Assembly: GCA_902624085.1 (NCBI GenBank)
Contig: CACNWD010000005.1
Coordinates: 1-55,986, forward strand
DNA length: 55,986 bases
Reading direction: 5' to 3'
Origin: an uncultured Prochlorococcus sp.
Lineage (GTDB): Bacteria; Cyanobacteriota; Cyanobacteriia; PCC-6307; Cyanobiaceae
Below, in pieces: positions 23,055 through 31,301 of this stretch. The translations under genes were made by a program, and so were the position numbers. Numbering within the stretch: position 1 is the stretch's first letter; each line of letters opens with the position of its first letter. The notes under the pieces were generated by a model. It saw only the letters and a list, made by a program, of their open reading frames with translations. It was not told where the DNA came from and made no database searches.

Positions 23055-24194
23055 ATGTTTTATATGGTTAAGAAAAAATTTCAAATTAACAAGCTACTTT
23101 TTATTTCAGCAATATTTGTAGGCTTATCAATAAACTCTGAATCAATTTCTTCTACTTATAAAAAAAGAATTGATAATGCATTGATTGCAAATGAAAGTAA
23201 ATCTTTCATAACAAAAGCAATTGAAAAGTCTGGTCCTGCTGTAGTAACTATTGATACTCAGAGACTTGTAAAATCTAATAAGATTTCTAGAGATCCAAGA
23301 ATACTTAAAGATCCTTATTTTGAACGATTTTTTGGTTTAACAATACCTTTTGAACCTCAAGAAAGGATAGAACAAGGACAAGGAAGTGGTGTAATAATCG
23401 ATAATGGAATTGTTCTTACCAATGCGCATGTAGTAAATCAAACCGAGAAATTAATTGTAGGTTTACAAGATGGCAGAAAATTTTCTGGGAAAGTTTTAGG
23501 TCAAGATATGCTTACAGACTTAGCAGTAATTAAATTAAAAGGGAAAGGACCATGGCCTAAAGCTAGCTTAGGTAATTCTGACGATATCAATGTGGGTGAT
23601 TGGGCAATTGCAGTCGGTAATCCTTATGGCTTAGAAAACACAGTAACACTTGGAATAATCAGCAATCTAAATCGAAATGTTTCCCAATTAGGAATATACG
23701 ACAAAAAGATTGAGCTTATTCAAACCGATGCAGCTATTAATCCGGGAAACTCAGGAGGCCCTTTACTAAATAATAAAGGGGAAGTAATTGGTATAAATAC
23801 TTTAATTAGATCTGGGCCAGGAGCAGGACTAAGTTTCGCTATCCCAATAAATAAAGTCAAAGAGATAGTTGATGAATTATTAGTAAACGGTAAAGTTATT
23901 CATCCTATGATAGGTATCAGCCTAATAAATGAAACTTCTTTAGAAACAAACAACATAAAGGTCAAAGTTGGTTATGTAGTACCTAAAAGTCCAGCTGCTA
24001 AAAGCGGAATTTTGGTAAATGATATCATTTTAAAAGTAGAAAAAGAATATATATATCAATCATCAGATGTTGTTGATGCTATTAATCAAAATGGAATAAA
24101 TAAATTTGCAAATATTTTAATCGAAAGAAATAAAAGTTTAATTAATATTAATGTAAAACCTATTGATATAAGAGATCTTTCTAAAAATAAATAA
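23055..24194 (+). CDS. HtrA/Deg-family serine protease
   Basis: A 379-residue periplasmic or lumen-facing protease/chaperone. It has an N-terminal hydrophobic export segment (about residues 12-28), then the trypsin-like domain with the full triad: His125 (LTNAHVV), Asp155 (DMLTDLAVI) and Ser233 (NPGNSGGPL). One PDZ domain follows (about residues 282-370, GYVVPKSPAAKSGILVNDIIL). This is the HhoA/HhoB/HtrA layout of cyanobacteria, acting on misfolded proteins under light and heat stress. Which of the three paralogues it is cannot be told from sequence alone. The 153-bp spacer upstream contains several TATAAT-like boxes. Confidence 0.92.
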   Translation: MFYMVKKKFQINKLLFISAIFVGLSINSESISSTYKKRIDNALIANESKSFITKAIEKSGPAVVTIDTQRLVKSNKISRDPRILKDPYFERFFGLTIPFEPQERIEQGQGSGVIIDNGIVLTNAHVVNQTEKLIVGLQDGRKFSGKVLGQDMLTDLAVIKLKGKGPWPKASLGNSDDINVGDWAIAVGNPYGLENTVTLGIISNLNRNVSQLGIYDKKIELIQTDAAINPGNSGGPLLNNKGEVIGINTLIRSGPGAGLSFAIPINKVKEIVDELLVNGKVIHPMIGISLINETSLETNNIKVKVGYVVPKSPAAKSGILVNDIILKVEKEYIYQSSDVVDAINQNGINKFANILIERNKSLININVKPIDIRDLSKNK

Positions 24195-24196
24195 TA

Positions 24197-24346
24197 TCAC
24201 CTTTCATGATCTTTAAGTATTTCTACACATTTTGAGATACATTGGCCATCTGAGATATCACAAGAAGAAATACATTCAAAATAATTATCAATTTGATCAA
24301 CATGCAAATTATTCAGACTAGAAAAATCATCCTTCTCTTTATACAT
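24197..24346 (-). CDS. Twin CX3C miniprotein, 49 residues
   Basis: A 49-codon frame from ATG at 24344-24346. The N-terminal half is acidic and polar (YKEKDDFSS). The C-terminal half carries four cysteines, Cys25, Cys29, Cys36 and Cys40, in the pattern CX3C-X6-CX3C, inside a probable helical hairpin (ECISSC / QCISKC). No signal peptide is visible. Twin CX3C pairs either bind a metal or close two disulfides, as in helical-hairpin small Tim-like proteins. The frame fills a gap between htrA (convergent, 2 nt) and the ABC-F gene. The spaced cysteines argue for selection, but I know no named family. Confidence 0.5.
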   Translation of the reverse strand: MYKEKDDFSSLNNLHVDQIDNYFECISSCDISDGQCISKCVEILKDHER

Positions 24347-24488
24347 TGAACTTATTTTAAATAGGTATTTATAAGATTAAACAAAGAGTAAGAATAATGT
24401 AAAGATAAATGAGTGATCTTGCCTATTTAAATGTAAAGATTTCTAAAAATAATTGAATTAAAATATAAAGAATAAGAAATTATACTTA

Positions 24489-26120
24489 CTAATTTGCAGT
24501 GGTATTCTTACTCTTTTTTTCTAAATAATATTCATACCCTCCATCAAAGGAATGAAAATTTGAATTTTTAATTTCAATAATTCTATTTGCAACTTTTGAT
24601 ATAAAAAATCTATCATGTGAAATAAGCAAAACTGTTCCTTTATAGGAATTTAAAGCAATTTCTAAATTTGCCTTAGATTGAAGATCAAGATGATTAGTTG
24701 GTTCATCAAGAAGTAAAAAATTACTTGGCTTCAAAATTATTAATGCCATTGCTAATCTCGCTTTCTCGCCACCACTTAATTGATTAACCTTTTTAAAAAC
24801 AGTATCTTTATAAAAACCAAATCCACCTAAAAATGTTCTAACTTTTTTTTGTGGCCAATTTGGCACCATTTCAAAAATCAAATCAATAATAATTTTTTCT
24901 GGATCAAGTGCCTCTGATTGATTTTGTTCATAATAACTTGTAATTAAATTGTGTTTACCTAACTTAATTTCTCCAATCTCAGGATTAATTTGCTTCATTA
25001 TTAACTTAAATAATGTAGATTTGCCAGCCCCATTCGGACCTAAGAATGCAACTTTTTCTCCACTAATAATCTTTAGATTTGATTCAAAAAATATAATCTT
25101 ATCAGAGAAACCATGACATAAATTTTTAATTTCTAAAACAGATTTACCTGAAGGTTTACATTCTGGAAATTTAAAAATAGGACTCTTTGCCTTTTTCAAA
25201 ACATTATCAACTTTTACAATCTTACTAATTTGTTTTTCTCGACTCTTTGCTTGAGTACTTCTTGTAGCACTTGCTCTAAATCTCTCAATATATCTTTTTT
25301 GAGTTTCTAGTTCTTTCTGTTGTAATTGATATGCTTTATTTCGAGATTGTTCATCTAATAATTTTTGTTCCATAAAAAAAGAATAATTTCCGTTATATGT
25401 TTTTGAAATACCGTTTTCTATAAAAACAATTTTTTTACATAATTTATCGATAAAATAACGGTCATGGCTTATCACTATAATTGAAGTTTTAAGAGGTAAT
25501 AAATATTCTTCTAACCAAGATATAGTATCTAAGTCAAGATGATTAGTTGGTTCATCAAGTAATAGTAAATCTGGTTGTAACAACATTATTTTTCCCAAAG
25601 CAATTTTCATTTGCCAACCGCATGAGAAATTTGAAACCAACTCATTAGCTTCCCCTTGGGAGAAACCTAGTACTGGAAGAATCTTATCAACTTTTGCTGG
25701 TATCAAATAACCACCTAAATCTTCAAATTTTCTCTGATAATTTCCTATCTTATTTATTAAATTATTTAAATTTCCTGATTCTCTTGAATCTTTTTTATTA
25801 AGCATCTCTGCCTCCAATGCATTTATTTTCTGACTAATTATTTGAATTTCTTTAAATGCACCAATCAATTCATCTCTCACAGAATTATTCATATTTAAAT
25901 CAAATTCCTGCTTTAAATATGAAATTCTAGGATTTCCCTCTTTTATAATAGCGCCACTAGTTTGCTCTTCTTCTCCGATTAAGATTTTTAGTTGAGTTGT
26001 TTTACCGGCGCCATTAGAACCAATCAAACCAATCTTTTCACCTTTTTTAATTTCCCAATTTATATTTTTCAGTACTAAATCGGTAGCAAAAATTTTAGTT
26101 ATATTTTCTAGTCTTAACAC
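24489..26120 (-). CDS. ABC-F family ATPase
   Basis: A 543-residue protein with two ABC domains and no membrane segments, as in ABC-F proteins that act on ribosomes (EttA, Uup, YheS group). Domain 1 has GSNGAGKTT (about residues 34-42), SCGWQMKIALG in place of the LSGG signature, and LLLLDEPTNHLDLD. Domain 2 has GPNGAGKST, LSGGEKARLAM and LLLDEPTNHLDLQ. The inter-domain linker contains the basic RFRASATRSTQAKSREKQ region. Family members resolve stalled ribosomes or regulate translation; which one applies here is not determined. Confidence 0.9.
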   Translation of the reverse strand: MLRLENITKIFATDLVLKNINWEIKKGEKIGLIGSNGAGKTTQLKILIGEEEQTSGAIIKEGNPRISYLKQEFDLNMNNSVRDELIGAFKEIQIISQKINALEAEMLNKKDSRESGNLNNLINKIGNYQRKFEDLGGYLIPAKVDKILPVLGFSQGEANELVSNFSCGWQMKIALGKIMLLQPDLLLLDEPTNHLDLDTISWLEEYLLPLKTSIIVISHDRYFIDKLCKKIVFIENGISKTYNGNYSFFMEQKLLDEQSRNKAYQLQQKELETQKRYIERFRASATRSTQAKSREKQISKIVKVDNVLKKAKSPIFKFPECKPSGKSVLEIKNLCHGFSDKIIFFESNLKIISGEKVAFLGPNGAGKSTLFKLIMKQINPEIGEIKLGKHNLITSYYEQNQSEALDPEKIIIDLIFEMVPNWPQKKVRTFLGGFGFYKDTVFKKVNQLSGGEKARLAMALIILKPSNFLLLDEPTNHLDLQSKANLEIALNSYKGTVLLISHDRFFISKVANRIIEIKNSNFHSFDGGYEYYLEKKSKNTTAN

Positions 26121-26188
26121 TTTAAAAATTAATTTACATAAAAAGATTCTTGGCTTCCAAAAAATAATTTGTGGAATAAAATTATAAT

Positions 26189-26365
26189 ATGAAGAGAATA
26201 GAACAAATTGTAGCTATTTTCATAGCAGCAGGATTATCGATACCAAGTTATTGGTTCTTCTGGACTTTAGCTGGTGGTGGAGGCTATGAAAAAAGAGCAA
26301 AACCTATTATTGAAAATAAATCACAAAAAATGTTAAAGTCCTCCTCTAACTTTGATAAGCCATAA
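26189..26365 (+). CDS. Small single-pass membrane protein, 58 residues
   Basis: A 58-codon frame from ATG 26189. Residues 6-28 form one hydrophobic membrane helix containing YWFFWTLAGGGG, and a basic/polar tail follows (YEKRAKPIIENKSQK). Aromatic clusters followed by a Gly run in such short proteins are common in thylakoid complex subunits, but I recognise none. It is divergent from the ABC-F gene (68-bp spacer) and its last 33 bases overlap the convergent Nif11-like gene. Confidence 0.55.
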   Translation: MKRIEQIVAIFIAAGLSIPSYWFFWTLAGGGGYEKRAKPIIENKSQKMLKSSSNFDKP

Positions 26366-26563
26366 TTTTGTTTGAACATCATCTAAAGTACTTAGATAAT
26401 CAATCACCTCCTCTTTTGATACTTTAATGTTTAAATCCTTACCTACTTTACAAATTTCTTCTAAAGCGGATTTAGGATTTGTTAGAGCTGTGCGAAATAA
26501 ACTTTGTTTTTTCTCCTTATCCTCAGAAATAATCTTATAAAGTTTTGCGGCATTGTTCTTCAT
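26333..26563 (-). CDS. Nif11-like leader-type small protein, 76 residues
   Basis: A 76-residue acidic/helical protein. The pattern (K)LYKIISEDKEKKQSLFRTA, NPKSALEEICKVGKDLNIKVSKEEV resembles the Nif11-like domain, the leader of ribosomal peptide natural products (including prochlorosins) in cyanobacteria. It ends VRGGL. A Gly-Gly near the end of such a leader marks the protease site, after which a core peptide normally follows; here only Leu is left. It may be a leader without core, an unmodified Nif11-like protein, or a chance resemblance. No lanthionine synthetase (LanM) or C39-protease transporter is in the window. Confidence 0.5.
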   Translation of the reverse strand: MKNNAAKLYKIISEDKEKKQSLFRTALTNPKSALEEICKVGKDLNIKVSKEEVIDYLSTLDDVQTKLWLIKVRGGL

Positions 26564-26598
26564 TTAATAAAAAAAATATCTTACTAATAGGATATTAT

Positions 26599-26937
26599 TT
26601 AAGCGACATTTTGTGCATTCTTTGTATTAAAAAATAAATCACTTTCTGACTCTTTCATTTCTTTTGCAGATGCATCTTCCATACTCCTTGCATCAAGACA
26701 CAAAACTTTTCTTAACTTTGCAAAGTTTGCAGCGTGAGATAATCTTCCATCCTGCTTTGCATGCAATTCAGATTTCTGAAGAATTTGATGCAAATGAGTC
26801 AATAAATAAGGACTAATCACAGCCGAAACTAAAACATCACTACTTTGCTTAAGTGAATTCTTTGTGCTTAACAACCTTTTTTTTCTTTGGCCAGCAATTA
26901 GACCTTTCCTAGAATTTACCTTTGCTGAATTTTTCAT
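26599..26937 (-). CDS. Basic small protein, unknown function
   Basis: A 112-residue protein from ATG at 26935-26937; an in-frame GTG at 26985 would add 16 residues but would start inside the likely -10 box, so I prefer the ATG. The N-terminus is rich in Lys/Arg (SAKVNSRKGLIAGQRKKRL); the middle is helical (LLTHLHQILQKSELHAKQDGRLSHAANFAKLRKVL); the end is acidic and polar. No membrane segment or signal is visible. I recognise no family. It is divergent from the ribbon-helix-helix regulator across an inverted repeat (26979-27015), so it may be a target of that regulator. Confidence 0.55.
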   Translation of the reverse strand: MKNSAKVNSRKGLIAGQRKKRLLSTKNSLKQSSDVLVSAVISPYLLTHLHQILQKSELHAKQDGRLSHAANFAKLRKVLCLDARSMEDASAKEMKESESDLFFNTKNAQNVA

Positions 26938-26976
26938 GATCAAATCATTAATTAAAGTAGTGAAGAACTTTCTATT

Positions 26977-27007
26977 ATTATACACAAAGATACTATCCTT
27001 GACTCAA
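26977..27007 (-). promoter_or_regulatory. Probable promoter of the basic small protein gene
   Basis: On the reverse strand a perfect TATAAT (26977-26982) lies 35-40 bases from the ATG at 26937. A TTGAGT box is at 27002-27007, with a 19-bp spacer, slightly longer than the ideal 17. This supports the ATG at 26937 over the upstream GTG. The -10 box overlaps the left arm of an inverted repeat. Confidence 0.45.
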
Positions 27008-27015
27008 TGTGTATA
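26979..27015. promoter_or_regulatory. Inverted repeat between divergent genes, candidate operator
   Basis: Perfect 8-bp arms TATACACA (26979-26986) and TGTGTATA (27008-27015) are separated by 21 bp. The left arm overlaps the leftward -10 box (26977-26982). The right arm overlaps TATACT (27012-27017), a good -10 for the rightward ribbon-helix-helix gene. A dimeric regulator bound to both arms would block both promoters. The obvious candidate is the adjacent ribbon-helix-helix protein, through autoregulation; this is inference. Confidence 0.45.
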
Positions 27016-27045
27016 CTTAGAAGTAACAGTTATGATTTAGTAGTC

Positions 27046-27351
27046 ATGGCCACGAGGCAAAATTCAACTAATGGGAAACCAAAGTCTCCAAGAATTCAAG
27101 TAGTACTTCCGGAGTCGTTATGTGAACAATTAGCTGATTTAGCAGAAGAAGAATCTAGAACTGTAAGTAATATGGCAAAAGTTTTGATACAGCAAGGAAT
27201 AAATAACTATATTAATAAAACAACAGAATTGGTTAAATCAAATTTAAATACTGATACAGATACTTTTAGAGACAAATTAGAGAAACAAAGTATTAAAAGG
27301 CTCAAAGGTCCACCTAAAAGAATACGTTATTTTAAAAATATGGATAATTAA
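27046..27351 (+). CDS. Ribbon-helix-helix (CopG/Arc-like) DNA-binding protein
   Basis: A 101-residue protein. Residues ~13-50 show the RHH pattern: a short strand (PRIQVVLPES), then helix A (LCEQLADLAEEES), a turn with R-T-V-S, and helix B (NMAKVLIQQGINNYI). The basic C-terminus ends PPKRIRYFKN. RHH proteins bind DNA as dimers of dimers, often to repeats in their own promoter. The start is ATG at 27046: the 13 residues upstream (from an ATG at 27007) would cover the probable -10 box and do not look coding. No toxin partner gene is next to it, so a toxin-antitoxin role is unlikely. Confidence 0.75.
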   Translation: MATRQNSTNGKPKSPRIQVVLPESLCEQLADLAEEESRTVSNMAKVLIQQGINNYINKTTELVKSNLNTDTDTFRDKLEKQSIKRLKGPPKRIRYFKNMDN

Positions 27352-27353
27352 TT

Positions 27354-28058
27354 TTAGGTTTTAGGTAAGTTTTGGAGAGCATCCATTGAACCCATTATAA
27401 CTAATACATTCCCTCTCTCTAATATATATTTTGCGGGCGGATTGACTGTTAAATTATCAGCAGGACCTGCAGCTAGTACATTAACAAGATAATTTTTTCT
27501 TAAATTTAGATCTCTCAAGGATCTGCCGATAAAATCTTCCGGGACAGTTATTTCATCTATACCAGTTTGATTATCTAATTCTAATCTCTCGATAAGGTTT
27601 GGTCTTACAAGCTCTAAACCTAATCTTTCTCCTTGCATCCTCGAAGGGAAAACAACTTTATCGGCACCAACTCTGATTAACATCTTTTCATGCAAATCAC
27701 TTGTGGCCCTAGCAATAACCTTTTTTACTTTAGTACCATCACTATCTTTCGCAATTAAAGTTGTAGTAATACTTGCTTCTATAGGCTCACTTATTCCCAC
27801 AACTAACGTATTCATTTCCAATATGCCAGATTCCTTCATAGATTCTTCATCAGTACAATCTACAACTCTTGCTTCGATAGTTGGCTCTAATTGTCTGAGA
27901 TCATCAATAGCCTTTTCTGAATAATCAGCAGCTAGCACATCTGCACCATTACTAATAAGCTCTCGACAAACCGCCGTCCCGAACCTTCCAACTCCAACAA
28001 CTGCAAATGTTAGGTCTTCATTTCCTTTTTGAGGAGACCATTGCCACCAGTCAGCCAT
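27354..28058 (-). CDS. ktrA: K+ uptake regulatory subunit with RCK domain (KtrA/TrkA)
   Basis: A 234-residue cytosolic ring-forming subunit. The N-terminal Rossmann RCK_N domain opens VVGVGRFGTAVCREL (about residues 20-34), with the acidic ribose-binding Asp in AADYS. The C-terminal RCK_C domain covers about 150-230 (GIDEITVPEDFIGRSLRDLNLR, NVLVIMGSMDALQNL). It gates the KtrB channel in response to nucleotide. It is third in a leftward operon after SLC13 and ktrB. It converges 2 nt from the RHH gene. Confidence 0.92.
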   Translation of the reverse strand: MADWWQWSPQKGNEDLTFAVVGVGRFGTAVCRELISNGADVLAADYSEKAIDDLRQLEPTIEARVVDCTDEESMKESGILEMNTLVVGISEPIEASITTTLIAKDSDGTKVKKVIARATSDLHEKMLIRVGADKVVFPSRMQGERLGLELVRPNLIERLELDNQTGIDEITVPEDFIGRSLRDLNLRKNYLVNVLAAGPADNLTVNPPAKYILERGNVLVIMGSMDALQNLPKT

Positions 28059-28075
28059 AATAAAATCAGTAATTA

Positions 28076-29488
28076 CTAAACATAAAGATCAGCTTTAGGG
28101 TAACCAATACGTTTTTGTTTATTTATTCTACTCTTATAAAGAGCCTCCCAAAGAGCGCTTAAAAATAAAAGTATACCTAGTCTTCCTACAAACATCCCCA
28201 CTATAAGAATCAATTGACCAAAATGATTAAGTTTTATTGTAAGTCCTATATCAAATCCCACTGTTGCAAAAGCTGAAATGCAAGTAAATAGCATTTCTAA
28301 AAATGTAAATTTTTCTTTATTAATGAATGTATTTGTTGTACTTAATAACATTGCCATCAGCAAAACAAATAATAAAGAACCAACTGTTATACCGACAGCT
28401 TTTAGTATTACTTTATCTGAAATTAATCGATTACTAATAATTACATCCTTTTGCCCTCGCAAAGTTGATCTAGTCGCAGCCATCAATGCAATAAAAGTTG
28501 TTGTTTTAATTCCTCCTCCAGTTCCACCAGTACTAGCGCCTATAAACATTAATGTCATCAATAGTAAAATTCCAGTATCTGAAATTGTATTTAAGGATAT
28601 TGGATAATTTGTAAAACCAGCAGTTCTTGCACTTACTGTTTCAAAAAAAGATGCTAATATTCTCTCTCCAAAATTCAAATCCGCAAAGAATTGACCATTC
28701 AATAGTGATTCCGTAATTAAGAAACCAACAGAACCAAAAATTATTAAATTTAAAGTTGTTCTCAGCACCAACTTGCTATGCAAACTTAGTTTTTTATAGC
28801 TCAAATTTTTTCTATTATTCCAAATATCATCTATAACTCTCCATCCAAGGCCTCCAAGAATTATTAAAAAAATAAATACAAAATTTACTATAAAATTTGT
28901 TCTATATGAATACACACTAGAAGACCATATCGAGAAACCTGCATTGTTATAAGCGGAAATACTATGAAATATTGAGGCCCATAGTCTTTCCCACTTATTT
29001 GAAATATCAATAAATCCAAAACAGAATAAAATAATTGCACCTGAAGAAATTATTATTGCGGCAGTAATAGTTATACTCTTAAATGTTCTTCCGATACCTC
29101 CCACTCCAAATTCATCAAGAGTATTACCTTTGTCTAATCTTGTCCTTAACTTTGTACCCTTAACTACGAATCCTTGAAGAAAAGTTGTTATTGCCATCAG
29201 CCCTAGACCTCCAGACAAAAGCATAAATGCTAAAAATATTTGTCCTAAAACTGTTAAATCTCTTCCAATATCAATTACGGTTAAGCCGGTTACAGTAATT
29301 GCTGATGTTGAAGTAAAAAATGCCTCCCAAACACCAACATCACTACTAGAACATAAGGGTGAGCTAAGGATTAAAGTTCCTAGGCAAATTATTATGAGAC
29401 CAGTAATTATCGTAAACTGAGGTATAGTCAGTTTTTTATAAGAATCTTTTAATTTAATGATTAAAATATTAAATTTCACTTTATACAA
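28076..29488 (-). CDS. ktrB: K+ (Na+-dependent) transporter membrane subunit KtrB/TrkH
   Basis: A 470-residue membrane protein with the four M1-P-M2 repeats of the TrkH/KtrB superfamily. The four filter loops are visible, each with its single Gly: AITVTGLTVID, SAYNNAGFSIW, SARTAGFTNY and SAFATVGFDIG. One filter Gly per repeat is the KtrB/TrkH pattern. It lies 17 nt upstream of ktrA and 4 nt downstream of the SLC13 gene. Ktr in cyanobacteria takes up K+ in a Na+-dependent way for salt and osmotic adaptation; that function is inferred from the family. Confidence 0.93.
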   Translation of the reverse strand: MYKVKFNILIIKLKDSYKKLTIPQFTIITGLIIICLGTLILSSPLCSSSDVGVWEAFFTSTSAITVTGLTVIDIGRDLTVLGQIFLAFMLLSGGLGLMAITTFLQGFVVKGTKLRTRLDKGNTLDEFGVGGIGRTFKSITITAAIIISSGAIILFCFGFIDISNKWERLWASIFHSISAYNNAGFSIWSSSVYSYRTNFIVNFVFIFLIILGGLGWRVIDDIWNNRKNLSYKKLSLHSKLVLRTTLNLIIFGSVGFLITESLLNGQFFADLNFGERILASFFETVSARTAGFTNYPISLNTISDTGILLLMTLMFIGASTGGTGGGIKTTTFIALMAATRSTLRGQKDVIISNRLISDKVILKAVGITVGSLLFVLLMAMLLSTTNTFINKEKFTFLEMLFTCISAFATVGFDIGLTIKLNHFGQLILIVGMFVGRLGILLFLSALWEALYKSRINKQKRIGYPKADLYV

Positions 29489-29492
29489 ATAA

Positions 29493-31301
29493 TTAAGCGT
29501 AATTGATCATAATCAAAGCAGGAATGATTAATGACATAATAATAGTCAATCCAATCCCATATTTCGCTATATCGAAGAATTTATATCTCCCTGGGCCATA
29601 AACCATTAAATTCGTTTGATATCCCATTGGAGTTAAAAAAGATTGACTCGCAGCAAATAGAACAGTAATAATTATTGCATTTGCGGACATCCCAAGACTT
29701 GGCGAGAATTGAATTGCAACCGGTAGAATCAATGCTACAGAAGCGGCATTACTAAGAAATTGTGTAACTATCACAGTAAATACAAAAATAACTAGCAAAG
29801 CTGCATATAAAGAGAGCCCTTCTAATAAGAAATTCAAATTTAACACAATTAAATCAGCCAATCCTGAAGTTTGAATAGCTACACTAAAACTCGATAATGA
29901 TCCTAGTAATAATAGAACATCTAATCTTATGGATCTTTTAATTTCAGATGGACGTAAACATCCAAAAACAACCATTGCAATGACTGCTAGAAGGACAGAT
30001 CCAACAAGAGGAATATTTATAATAGAGGGTAAAATAATCATCGCCAAAGCTATAGCTATTGCAACTGGCTTTTTCCTCAGAACAGGAAGATCATCTTCAA
30101 CTTGATCTAACACAAGCAAGTCGTTACTACTTTGCAATCCTCTAATTGAGTCCAAGGGTGCTTGTATTAACAACACATCACCTGCTCTAAGAATACATTG
30201 ACCTAACCTCTCTTGAATTGTCTGTTGACCTCTTCTTAATGCTAAAACAGTAGAATTATATCTTTGTCTAAATCTTAATTCTCTTAAACTTGCACCTGCT
30301 AGAGTAGATCCTGAAGGAAGCAAAGATTCAAAAGTTTTTGTCCCTTCAGAACAATCTATAAATTTATCATTCTTATTAAATTCTCTTTTTTCAGCTAAAA
30401 GGATAGTTCTTTCTTGCTCCAATCTTAATAAATCTATACGAGTAACTCTTATTAGTAATCTATCATCAGGTTCAATTTTTCTATCAGCTAAAGGCGGAAG
30501 AATCGTTTTGCCATTCCGCTGTAATTGAATAACATCAACATCAAATCTTCTTTGCAATCTGCTATTACGAATTGACTGACCAACCAACTTTGAATCCGAA
30601 GGAATAGTAACTTCCGTACAATAATTATTTAAATTAACATTATTTGTAAGAGAAGTACCTATCCCCCTGTCAGGAAGTAAAGAGTCAGAAACAATTAATA
30701 AATAAGCTGCACCAATAATCCAAACTGGAATGCCAATCTTTGTAATACTAAATAGTTCTAAAGCTCCATATCCTAATTGTTCACTAATATCACTAACTAG
30801 AAGGTTTACGGAACTACCTAGAAGAGTTATTGTCCCTCCAAGTAAAACTGAAAATGATAAGGGTAAAAGTACTTTTGAAGGCGAAATATTTCTTTTTATG
30901 CACCACCCTTCAGCGAGCGGCAAAAGCGAAGCAACTAATGGAGTATTTGGCACAATTCCTGAAATAGGAGCAACTACTAAAGCTAATAGTGTTATAAATC
31001 TCTTAGAGGTCTTAATACTTTCAGAAGCTAATAATTCTCTTACTCTATCGAAAGAGCCACTCTTAACTAATGCAGATGAGATTGAAAATAATCCCATCAG
31101 TGTAATTAAGGAAGGGCTGCCAAATCCAGACAATGCTTTTTGAGGAGATAAAACACCAGTTACAATAAAAATTGCAACGCATAATAAGCCGGTCAATTCA
31201 GGAACTATTGTATTTTTAATGAATAAAAAAATAGATAAACATAAAACTAATACCGTTATAAAGGCTTCATAGTTTTCATTTAAAAAAATAATTAGATCCA
31301 T
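29493..31301 (-). CDS. SLC13/DASS-family ion transporter with two RCK_C domains
   Basis: A 602-residue membrane protein. Two blocks of membrane segments (about residues 1-205 and 415-600) flank a cytosolic region with two RCK_C (TrkA_C) domains (~225-310 and ~325-405), with motifs such as SKLVGQSIRNSRLQRRFDVDVI and STLAGASLRELRFRQRYNSTVLAL. This layout is that of the SAC1-like/SLT type sulfate (or other anion) sodium symporters of algae and cyanobacteria. SNAASVALILPVAI and FAASQSFLTPMGYQTN are transporter hallmarks. The ion is unproven: sulfate is suggested by the family and by nearby cysH, and Na+ by the Ktr operon. It is the first gene of the operon with ktrB (4 nt) and ktrA. Confidence 0.87.
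   Translation of the reverse strand: MDLIIFLNENYEAFITVLVLCLSIFLFIKNTIVPELTGLLCVAIFIVTGVLSPQKALSGFGSPSLITLMGLFSISSALVKSGSFDRVRELLASESIKTSKRFITLLALVVAPISGIVPNTPLVASLLPLAEGWCIKRNISPSKVLLPLSFSVLLGGTITLLGSSVNLLVSDISEQLGYGALELFSITKIGIPVWIIGAAYLLIVSDSLLPDRGIGTSLTNNVNLNNYCTEVTIPSDSKLVGQSIRNSRLQRRFDVDVIQLQRNGKTILPPLADRKIEPDDRLLIRVTRIDLLRLEQERTILLAEKREFNKNDKFIDCSEGTKTFESLLPSGSTLAGASLRELRFRQRYNSTVLALRRGQQTIQERLGQCILRAGDVLLIQAPLDSIRGLQSSNDLLVLDQVEDDLPVLRKKPVAIAIALAMIILPSIINIPLVGSVLLAVIAMVVFGCLRPSEIKRSIRLDVLLLLGSLSSFSVAIQTSGLADLIVLNLNFLLEGLSLYAALLVIFVFTVIVTQFLSNAASVALILPVAIQFSPSLGMSANAIIITVLFAASQSFLTPMGYQTNLMVYGPGRYKFFDIAKYGIGLTIIMSLIIPALIMINYA

Follow-up and report, generated by a model that had tools for sequence, protein, structure and literature searches.

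The spacer between two divergent genes near 27 kb of the window (the whole 55,986-nucleotide stretch analysed here) is a strongly conserved, near-private putative regulatory element. One of the two genes encodes a ribbon-helix-helix (RHH) protein, P0001, and the other a basic protein, P0002. At a probability that we put at roughly 0.6, the spacer would serve an autoregulated RHH repressor, as a near-private operator common to two divergent promoters. The core of this candidate operator is an 11-bp palindrome, which reads aGATACTATCC in the window and GGATA(C/G)TA(T/C)CC across the family. The window has about 30% G+C and belongs to a genome (G000) of 1.06 Mb in 45 contigs. Its features are collected in Table 1.

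Table 1. Features in and around the divergent spacer, in window coordinates.
Feature	Position	Strand	Basis or remark
Basic-protein gene, 112 aa (P0002)	26599-26937	-	Divergent from the RHH gene
Predicted -10 box, basic-protein gene: TATAAT	26977-26982	-	Sequence and fixed alignment position
Left arm TATACACA	26979-26986		Exact in the window; symmetry restricted to the genus
Proposed core operator, palindrome	26988-26998		Near-invariant columns; near-private to the RHH promoter
Right arm TGTGTATA	27008-27015		Exact in the window; symmetry restricted to the genus
Predicted -10 box, RHH gene: TATACT	27012-27017	+	Sequence and fixed alignment position
Possible secondary site TAACAGTTA	27024-27032		Close to the predicted RHH transcription start; within a weaker conserved TAnC stretch
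RHH (CopG-like) regulator gene, 101 aa (P0001)	27046-27351	+	Pfam RHH_5

We searched 300 genomes of the family, taken as the genome collection defines it, and aligned RHH loci from within the genus (71, made up of 53 genus-genome loci and 18 further genus loci) and from many other genera (60, with several loci per well-sampled genus). In every one of the 131 aligned family loci the palindrome lies between the two -10 boxes, at constant spacing to each. A strict form of the pattern found 130 of 132 loci and missed L054, which encodes an extra-family protein, and L076, which matches with one extra allowed difference and was later counted to give the 131 of 131. Between 55 and 155 bp separate the palindrome from the RHH start codon (58 bp in 115 of 130 loci), yet its spacing to the -10 boxes is constant. 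The most constant columns are G1 G2 A3 T4 A5 (C/G)6 T7 A8 (T/C)9 C10 C11 of the palindrome, along with the left -10 and the right -10. Use of the palindrome is lopsided: position 9 is T or C, and its mirror position 3 is never G (92 loci). The element, its constant geometry, its near uniqueness and its linkage to both genes are read directly from the genomes.

From the 83 genomes with an RHH match but no 14-mer RGATASTAYCCTTG, we drew a further sample of 30. The palindrome stood upstream of the RHH gene in all 30 of these loci (20 exact, nine with one mismatch and one with two), followed by TACACT in 26 of 30; one locus did not fit the pattern from which the frequency table was built, so that 29 of the 30 entered it. 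We had considered the 14-mer, including its TTG, as the core, but these 30 loci carry the palindrome mostly without TTG, which is therefore excluded from the core. A conserved site in its own promoter follows the RHH gene across genera (131 of 131 plus 30 of 30 loci), as is expected of an autoregulated RHH repressor. In genus g86, one locus (L066) has the palindrome lengthened to a perfect 17-bp CAAGGATACTATCCTTG, and L066 and L069 have TACAC/GTGTA flanks that partly resemble the arms seen in the window.

The gene layout and the arms had been described in an earlier note on this DNA, which proposed that a regulator bound to both arms could silence both genes at once. The arms TATACACA and TGTGTATA are indeed an exact 8-bp inverted repeat spanning 26979-27015 with 21 bp between them, and by sequence each overlaps the -10-like hexamer of one divergent gene, TATAAT on the minus strand and TATACT on the plus strand. 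The note's gene assignments also stood: one gene encodes an RHH protein (Pfam RHH_5, 1.6e-18) and the other a basic protein that matches nothing in Pfam. Its suspicion that part of the symmetry comes from the -10 boxes was well founded, in that the arms consist of the two divergent -10 boxes plus TGTG. When the 108-bp spacer was shuffled 5000 times with dinucleotides preserved, 19.3% of the shuffles contained a perfect 8-bp inverted repeat with a gap of at most 60, and among 518 tiles of the window the share was 17%; since such repeats are this frequent, the arm pair is by itself weak evidence. The arm 8-mer has just two copies in the window against 1.79 expected, and two or more copies arose in 54 of 100 shuffles.

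Conservation separates the arms from the palindrome. Among the 71 genus loci, 68 have arms that agree at all 8 positions; in the 60 loci from other genera only 2-5 positions of 8 agree, and in 29 more 2-6 of 8. If the RHH protein bound both arms and bridged the two -10 boxes, the exact repeat in the window and its near-perfect retention within the genus would be accounted for; we nevertheless hold this to be very unlikely, since the arms diverge between genera while the presumed RHH contact strand stays unchanged, the arm centers are 29 bp apart, which is not a whole number of helical turns, and an arm pair of this kind has a 19% chance rate. At family level the arms are not conserved beyond their TATA parts, an outcome that the note itself had named as counting against its proposal, and on this ground we rejected them as the operator. 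The note had further predicted conserved arms around a variable middle. The opposite was seen: the palindrome in the middle is nearly invariant, and the near invariance of the middle within the genus already contradicts that prediction. What survives of the shared-silencing idea, on comparative evidence, is a shared control region, likely an RHH autoregulatory site through which both genes might be silenced, and not the arms as its binding sites. The 8-bp arms are apparently -10 boxes that have turned into mirror images in one genus, a by-product of the conserved element.

Much of this conservation could in principle come from the promoters themselves. Within the genus (n=71), a block of about 60 bp, including its middle, is nearly invariant and the flanking leaders are variable; because nearly all of the block is invariant, operator and promoter are inseparable within the genus alone. 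Across the family, the -10 of the basic-protein gene changes from TATAAT in the window to TATG(C/A)T (minus strand) in most other genera, and that of the RHH gene from TATACT to TACACT. Two overlapping sigma-70 type promoters without a dedicated operator would explain why both -10 boxes are among the conserved columns, and their overlap would fix the spacing, but most columns of the palindrome vary as little as those of the -10 boxes, and in the promoter scan neither -10 was paired with a -35-type hexamer. We therefore regard a purely promoter-based constraint as improbable. The two-hexamer scan of the window listed neither -10, because a consensus -35 is absent, and a search of positions 24000-30000 of the window for Rfam elements found none at E up to 1.

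The protein side agrees with a site of the RHH protein's own. P0001 matches RHH_5 with 66.6 bits against a cut-off of 26 (1.6e-18), which places it in the RHH domain family, and of 300 family genomes 247 contain a match to it, in at least five cases a weak one (E above 1e-4); within the genus, 53 of 61 genomes (the window's own is one of them) have an orthologue. A comparison of 16 hand-picked orthologues showed no variation at S14 P15 R16, Q18, V19, V20 and L21, nor from R38 to A44. The S14-L21 stretch is presumably the DNA-contacting strand of RHH proteins, and autoregulation predicts just this combination of an unchanging contact strand with an unchanging site. On the structural side, single-sequence models proved too weak to rely on (an AlphaFold2 model of P0001 gave one long helix, 23-86, pTM 0.40), and the eight solved structures listed for the RHH profile were all weak matches, with two designed TPR proteins at about 0.002 and the RHH proteins 2k9i at 0.21 and 6iya at 0.45. 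Among 14 genomes searched, 12 encode one RHH_5 protein and two (G041 and G132) encode two; no RHH_1 match was found in the same 14. The second RHH_5 proteins lie at G041:C1:40560-40682 and G132:C1:1343271-1343396. The extra-family locus L054 (G086:C9) encodes a distant relative with 33% identity, and the stretch fetched there has neither an upstream palindrome nor the basic protein.

We next considered how private the element is. The exact 11-mer palindrome gave 20 sites in 20 of 48 near-complete genomes, 18 of them at the RHH promoter by coordinates, one elsewhere (G282) and one in a genome with no listed RHH position (G259). The backward-read control pattern occurred five times in the same 48 genomes, so that a chance site per genome is rare for a pattern of this kind. 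Nine near-complete genomes without an RHH match contained no exact palindrome. It was absent from 28 of the 48 genomes, 19 of which have an RHH match, and those of the 19 that were fetched carry variants one or two bases away. The 14-mer form is found in 165 of 300 family genomes, usually in one copy, and where coordinates are comparable it lies almost always just upstream of the RHH gene. Among the matches listed, those away from the RHH promoter were in G022, G119, G207, G228 and G389; in G119, which has no RHH match, the 14-mer is just downstream of an ABC-transporter gene, apparently in coding sequence.

These counts bear on whether the palindrome might be occupied by a different transcription factor that controls both genes, with the RHH protein acting elsewhere. 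As a dimer-type site of ordinary kind, the palindrome could be bound by another regulator, and the family presumably possesses other regulators besides the RHH protein. A regulator with other targets should leave sites elsewhere, yet the exact palindrome is near-private and is absent from the nine RHH-less genomes, and we judge a different binder to be unlikely.

The RHH gene, the divergent basic-protein gene and the element are mostly kept or lost together. Every one of the 131 family RHH loci examined, and each of the 30 sampled later, has the P0002 gene upstream in the opposite orientation; among the former are all 53 genus orthologue loci. The family includes 53 genomes without an RHH match, and P0002 is missing from 51 of them and the 14-mer from 52. 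In 22 of the 53, completeness is 90% or more and contamination 5% or less; one of these 22 has the basic protein. The other 31 are less than 90% complete or more than 5% contaminated. As the gene pair and the element are adjacent, a single deletion would yield the same co-occurrence. At the level of the class, P0002 matched 20 of 194 genomes, all 20 of them within the family. Downstream of the P0002 gene and on the same strand is a 76-aa frame (26333-26563, minus strand) that ends in ...RGGL; it reached no family above cut-off and by eye is like a Nif11-type leader. After the RHH gene, 27354-31301 (minus strand) holds a TrkA-type gene and, by eye, TrkH-like and other transport genes.

RHH antitoxins commonly autoregulate, and joint retention could also reflect a toxin-antitoxin-like pair in which the RHH protein would be the antitoxin and the divergent P0002 the toxin. 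The genomic pattern speaks against such a pair: the two genes are divergent rather than arranged as an operon, and the RHH gene is widespread in the family rather than patchy. P0002 itself had no match at E up to 1 in Pfam, NCBIfam, PHROG, PADLOC or PDB sequences, and nothing there assigns it to a toxin family. We consider a toxin-antitoxin arrangement extremely unlikely.

Under the preferred reading, an autoregulated repressor, the RHH protein would most likely bind GGATA(C/G)TA(T/C)CC, perhaps aided by weaker neighboring sites. The TAnC stretch near the predicted RHH transcript start, in which TAACAGTTA lies, is conserved at 95%, 95% and 80% in columns k37, k38 and k40 (92 loci). Assuming that transcripts start 6-7 bp past each -10, the palindrome center would precede the RHH start by about 31 bp and the basic-protein start by about 23 bp. 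With the palindrome centered near -31 and -23, a protein bound to it would keep RNA polymerase off both promoters, and negative autoregulation of the RHH gene would be coupled to repression of the divergent P0002 gene. From the conserved sequence we infer three further points: binding by the RHH protein, repression as its effect, and a response of both genes.

A more elaborate version of this model divides the element into some five 10-bp units that extend from one -10 box as far as the other gene's start; RHH dimers stacked on them, all on the same face of the DNA, would lock both promoters at the same time. It also holds that the element shares ancestry with the operator of TrcR, the cyanobacterial RHH autorepressor compared below, as parts of one ancient cyanobacterial RHH circuit whose proteins have diverged beyond recognition. 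Self-similarity at 10 bp had a family-wise p of 0.008 in 89 non-genus loci (0.017 in the subset of 60 and 0.04 in the subset of 29), and a p of 0.026 in a narrower span. The p was 0.60 in the 71 genus loci and about 1 in the window alone; it was 0.21 without the left part and 0.11 without the left part and the palindrome. Since the period was spotted by eye before testing, these values are suggestive only. A row of stacked dimers is possible, and the full version, with its shared ancestry, seems doubtful to us. If it were true, perhaps the sole RHH protein of Prochlorococcus would be devoted to one circuit of two genes.

Minimal picocyanobacteria have few regulators. An RHH protein, its near-private operator and the highly conserved, uncharacterised P0002 would together form a small, complete and testable circuit in very abundant phototrophs, and P0002 would gain a regulatory partner. 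Supplements aside, we found no description of the operator among the papers listed on RHH/CopG proteins in Prochlorococcus, picocyanobacteria, Synechococcus or cyanobacteria, and the accessible parts of PMC3877281, PMC1858693 and PMC4215834 do not describe it. A look for binding, footprint or expression results on P0001 under its own locus tag likewise turned up none. As text, in the spelling of one strand, GGATACTATCC turned up in one paper, which concerns Corynebacterium carotenoid genes.

CopG and Arc type RHH repressors are short proteins that commonly repress their own promoters. P0001 resembles them in being a short RHH protein and in matching PHROG 3431, 'Arc-like repressor', at 5.1e-10. 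It differs from them in context, as no plasmid or phage surroundings were seen in searches that covered phage records and viral contigs. A phage origin was rejected: tblastn of P0001 against 50,697 phage records at E up to 0.01 found no match, nor did tblastn of P0002 against phages, and a scan of viral contigs gave no confirmed relative.

In Prochlorococcus MED4, copG (CyCOG 3686) transcripts are among the most enriched in sudden darkness, whether or not the cells are infected, and peak in daytime over the diel cycle, according to the available text of PMC5082946, which reports expression alone and gives no operator or target. The MED4 gene is probably the same as that of P0001, because just one RHH_5 protein is encoded in 12 of the 14 family genomes searched, and RHH_1 matches were absent from all 14. 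If so, the circuit would respond to light or energy state.

The closest comparison is with TrcR (All0854) of Anabaena sp. PCC 7120, a cyanobacterial RHH autorepressor with a footprinted site, ATACTACACTTGTATTAC, over its own -10 (PMC10272220, as are the following statements on TrcR, all from the part of that paper available). Its promoter region is common with asr0855, which is 9-fold up in the mutant (Table 1 of that paper) and which, by gene name, would run opposite in direction to trcR. The likeness to our locus extends to a cyanobacterial RHH protein, a site (putative in our case) over its own promoter region and a promoter region common with a neighbor. There are also differences: TrcR has many targets, whereas the picocyanobacterial element is near-private; the -10 is inside the TrcR motif, whereas here it is 13 bp downstream of the palindrome; and the contact strand and C-terminal region of P0001 orthologues differ from those of TrcR by eye. 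Orthology was rejected, as hhalign of 16 orthologues against eight TrcR proteins gave a probability of 1.6, with 20 aligned columns outside the RHH strand.

The operators themselves show some resemblance. Against the 60 non-genus elements the 18-bp TrcR motif of PMC10272220 averaged 12 of 18 matches, and 0 of 500 permuted motifs did as well, while 5% of single shuffled elements score 12 of 18. The best single match was 14 of 18, in seven of 160 elements, and the best match fell at the same place in 144 of 160, of which 71 are near-identical genus loci. Scanning with the same 18-bp motif returned at least 115 stretches, 109 with a TrcR gene just downstream. The resemblance may reflect either ancestry or convergence on promoter-like sequence. 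TrcR itself is missing from picocyanobacteria, as far as the accessible text of PMC10272220 states, and by analogy our analysis suggests that these organisms may own an RHH autorepressor circuit comparable to that of TrcR.
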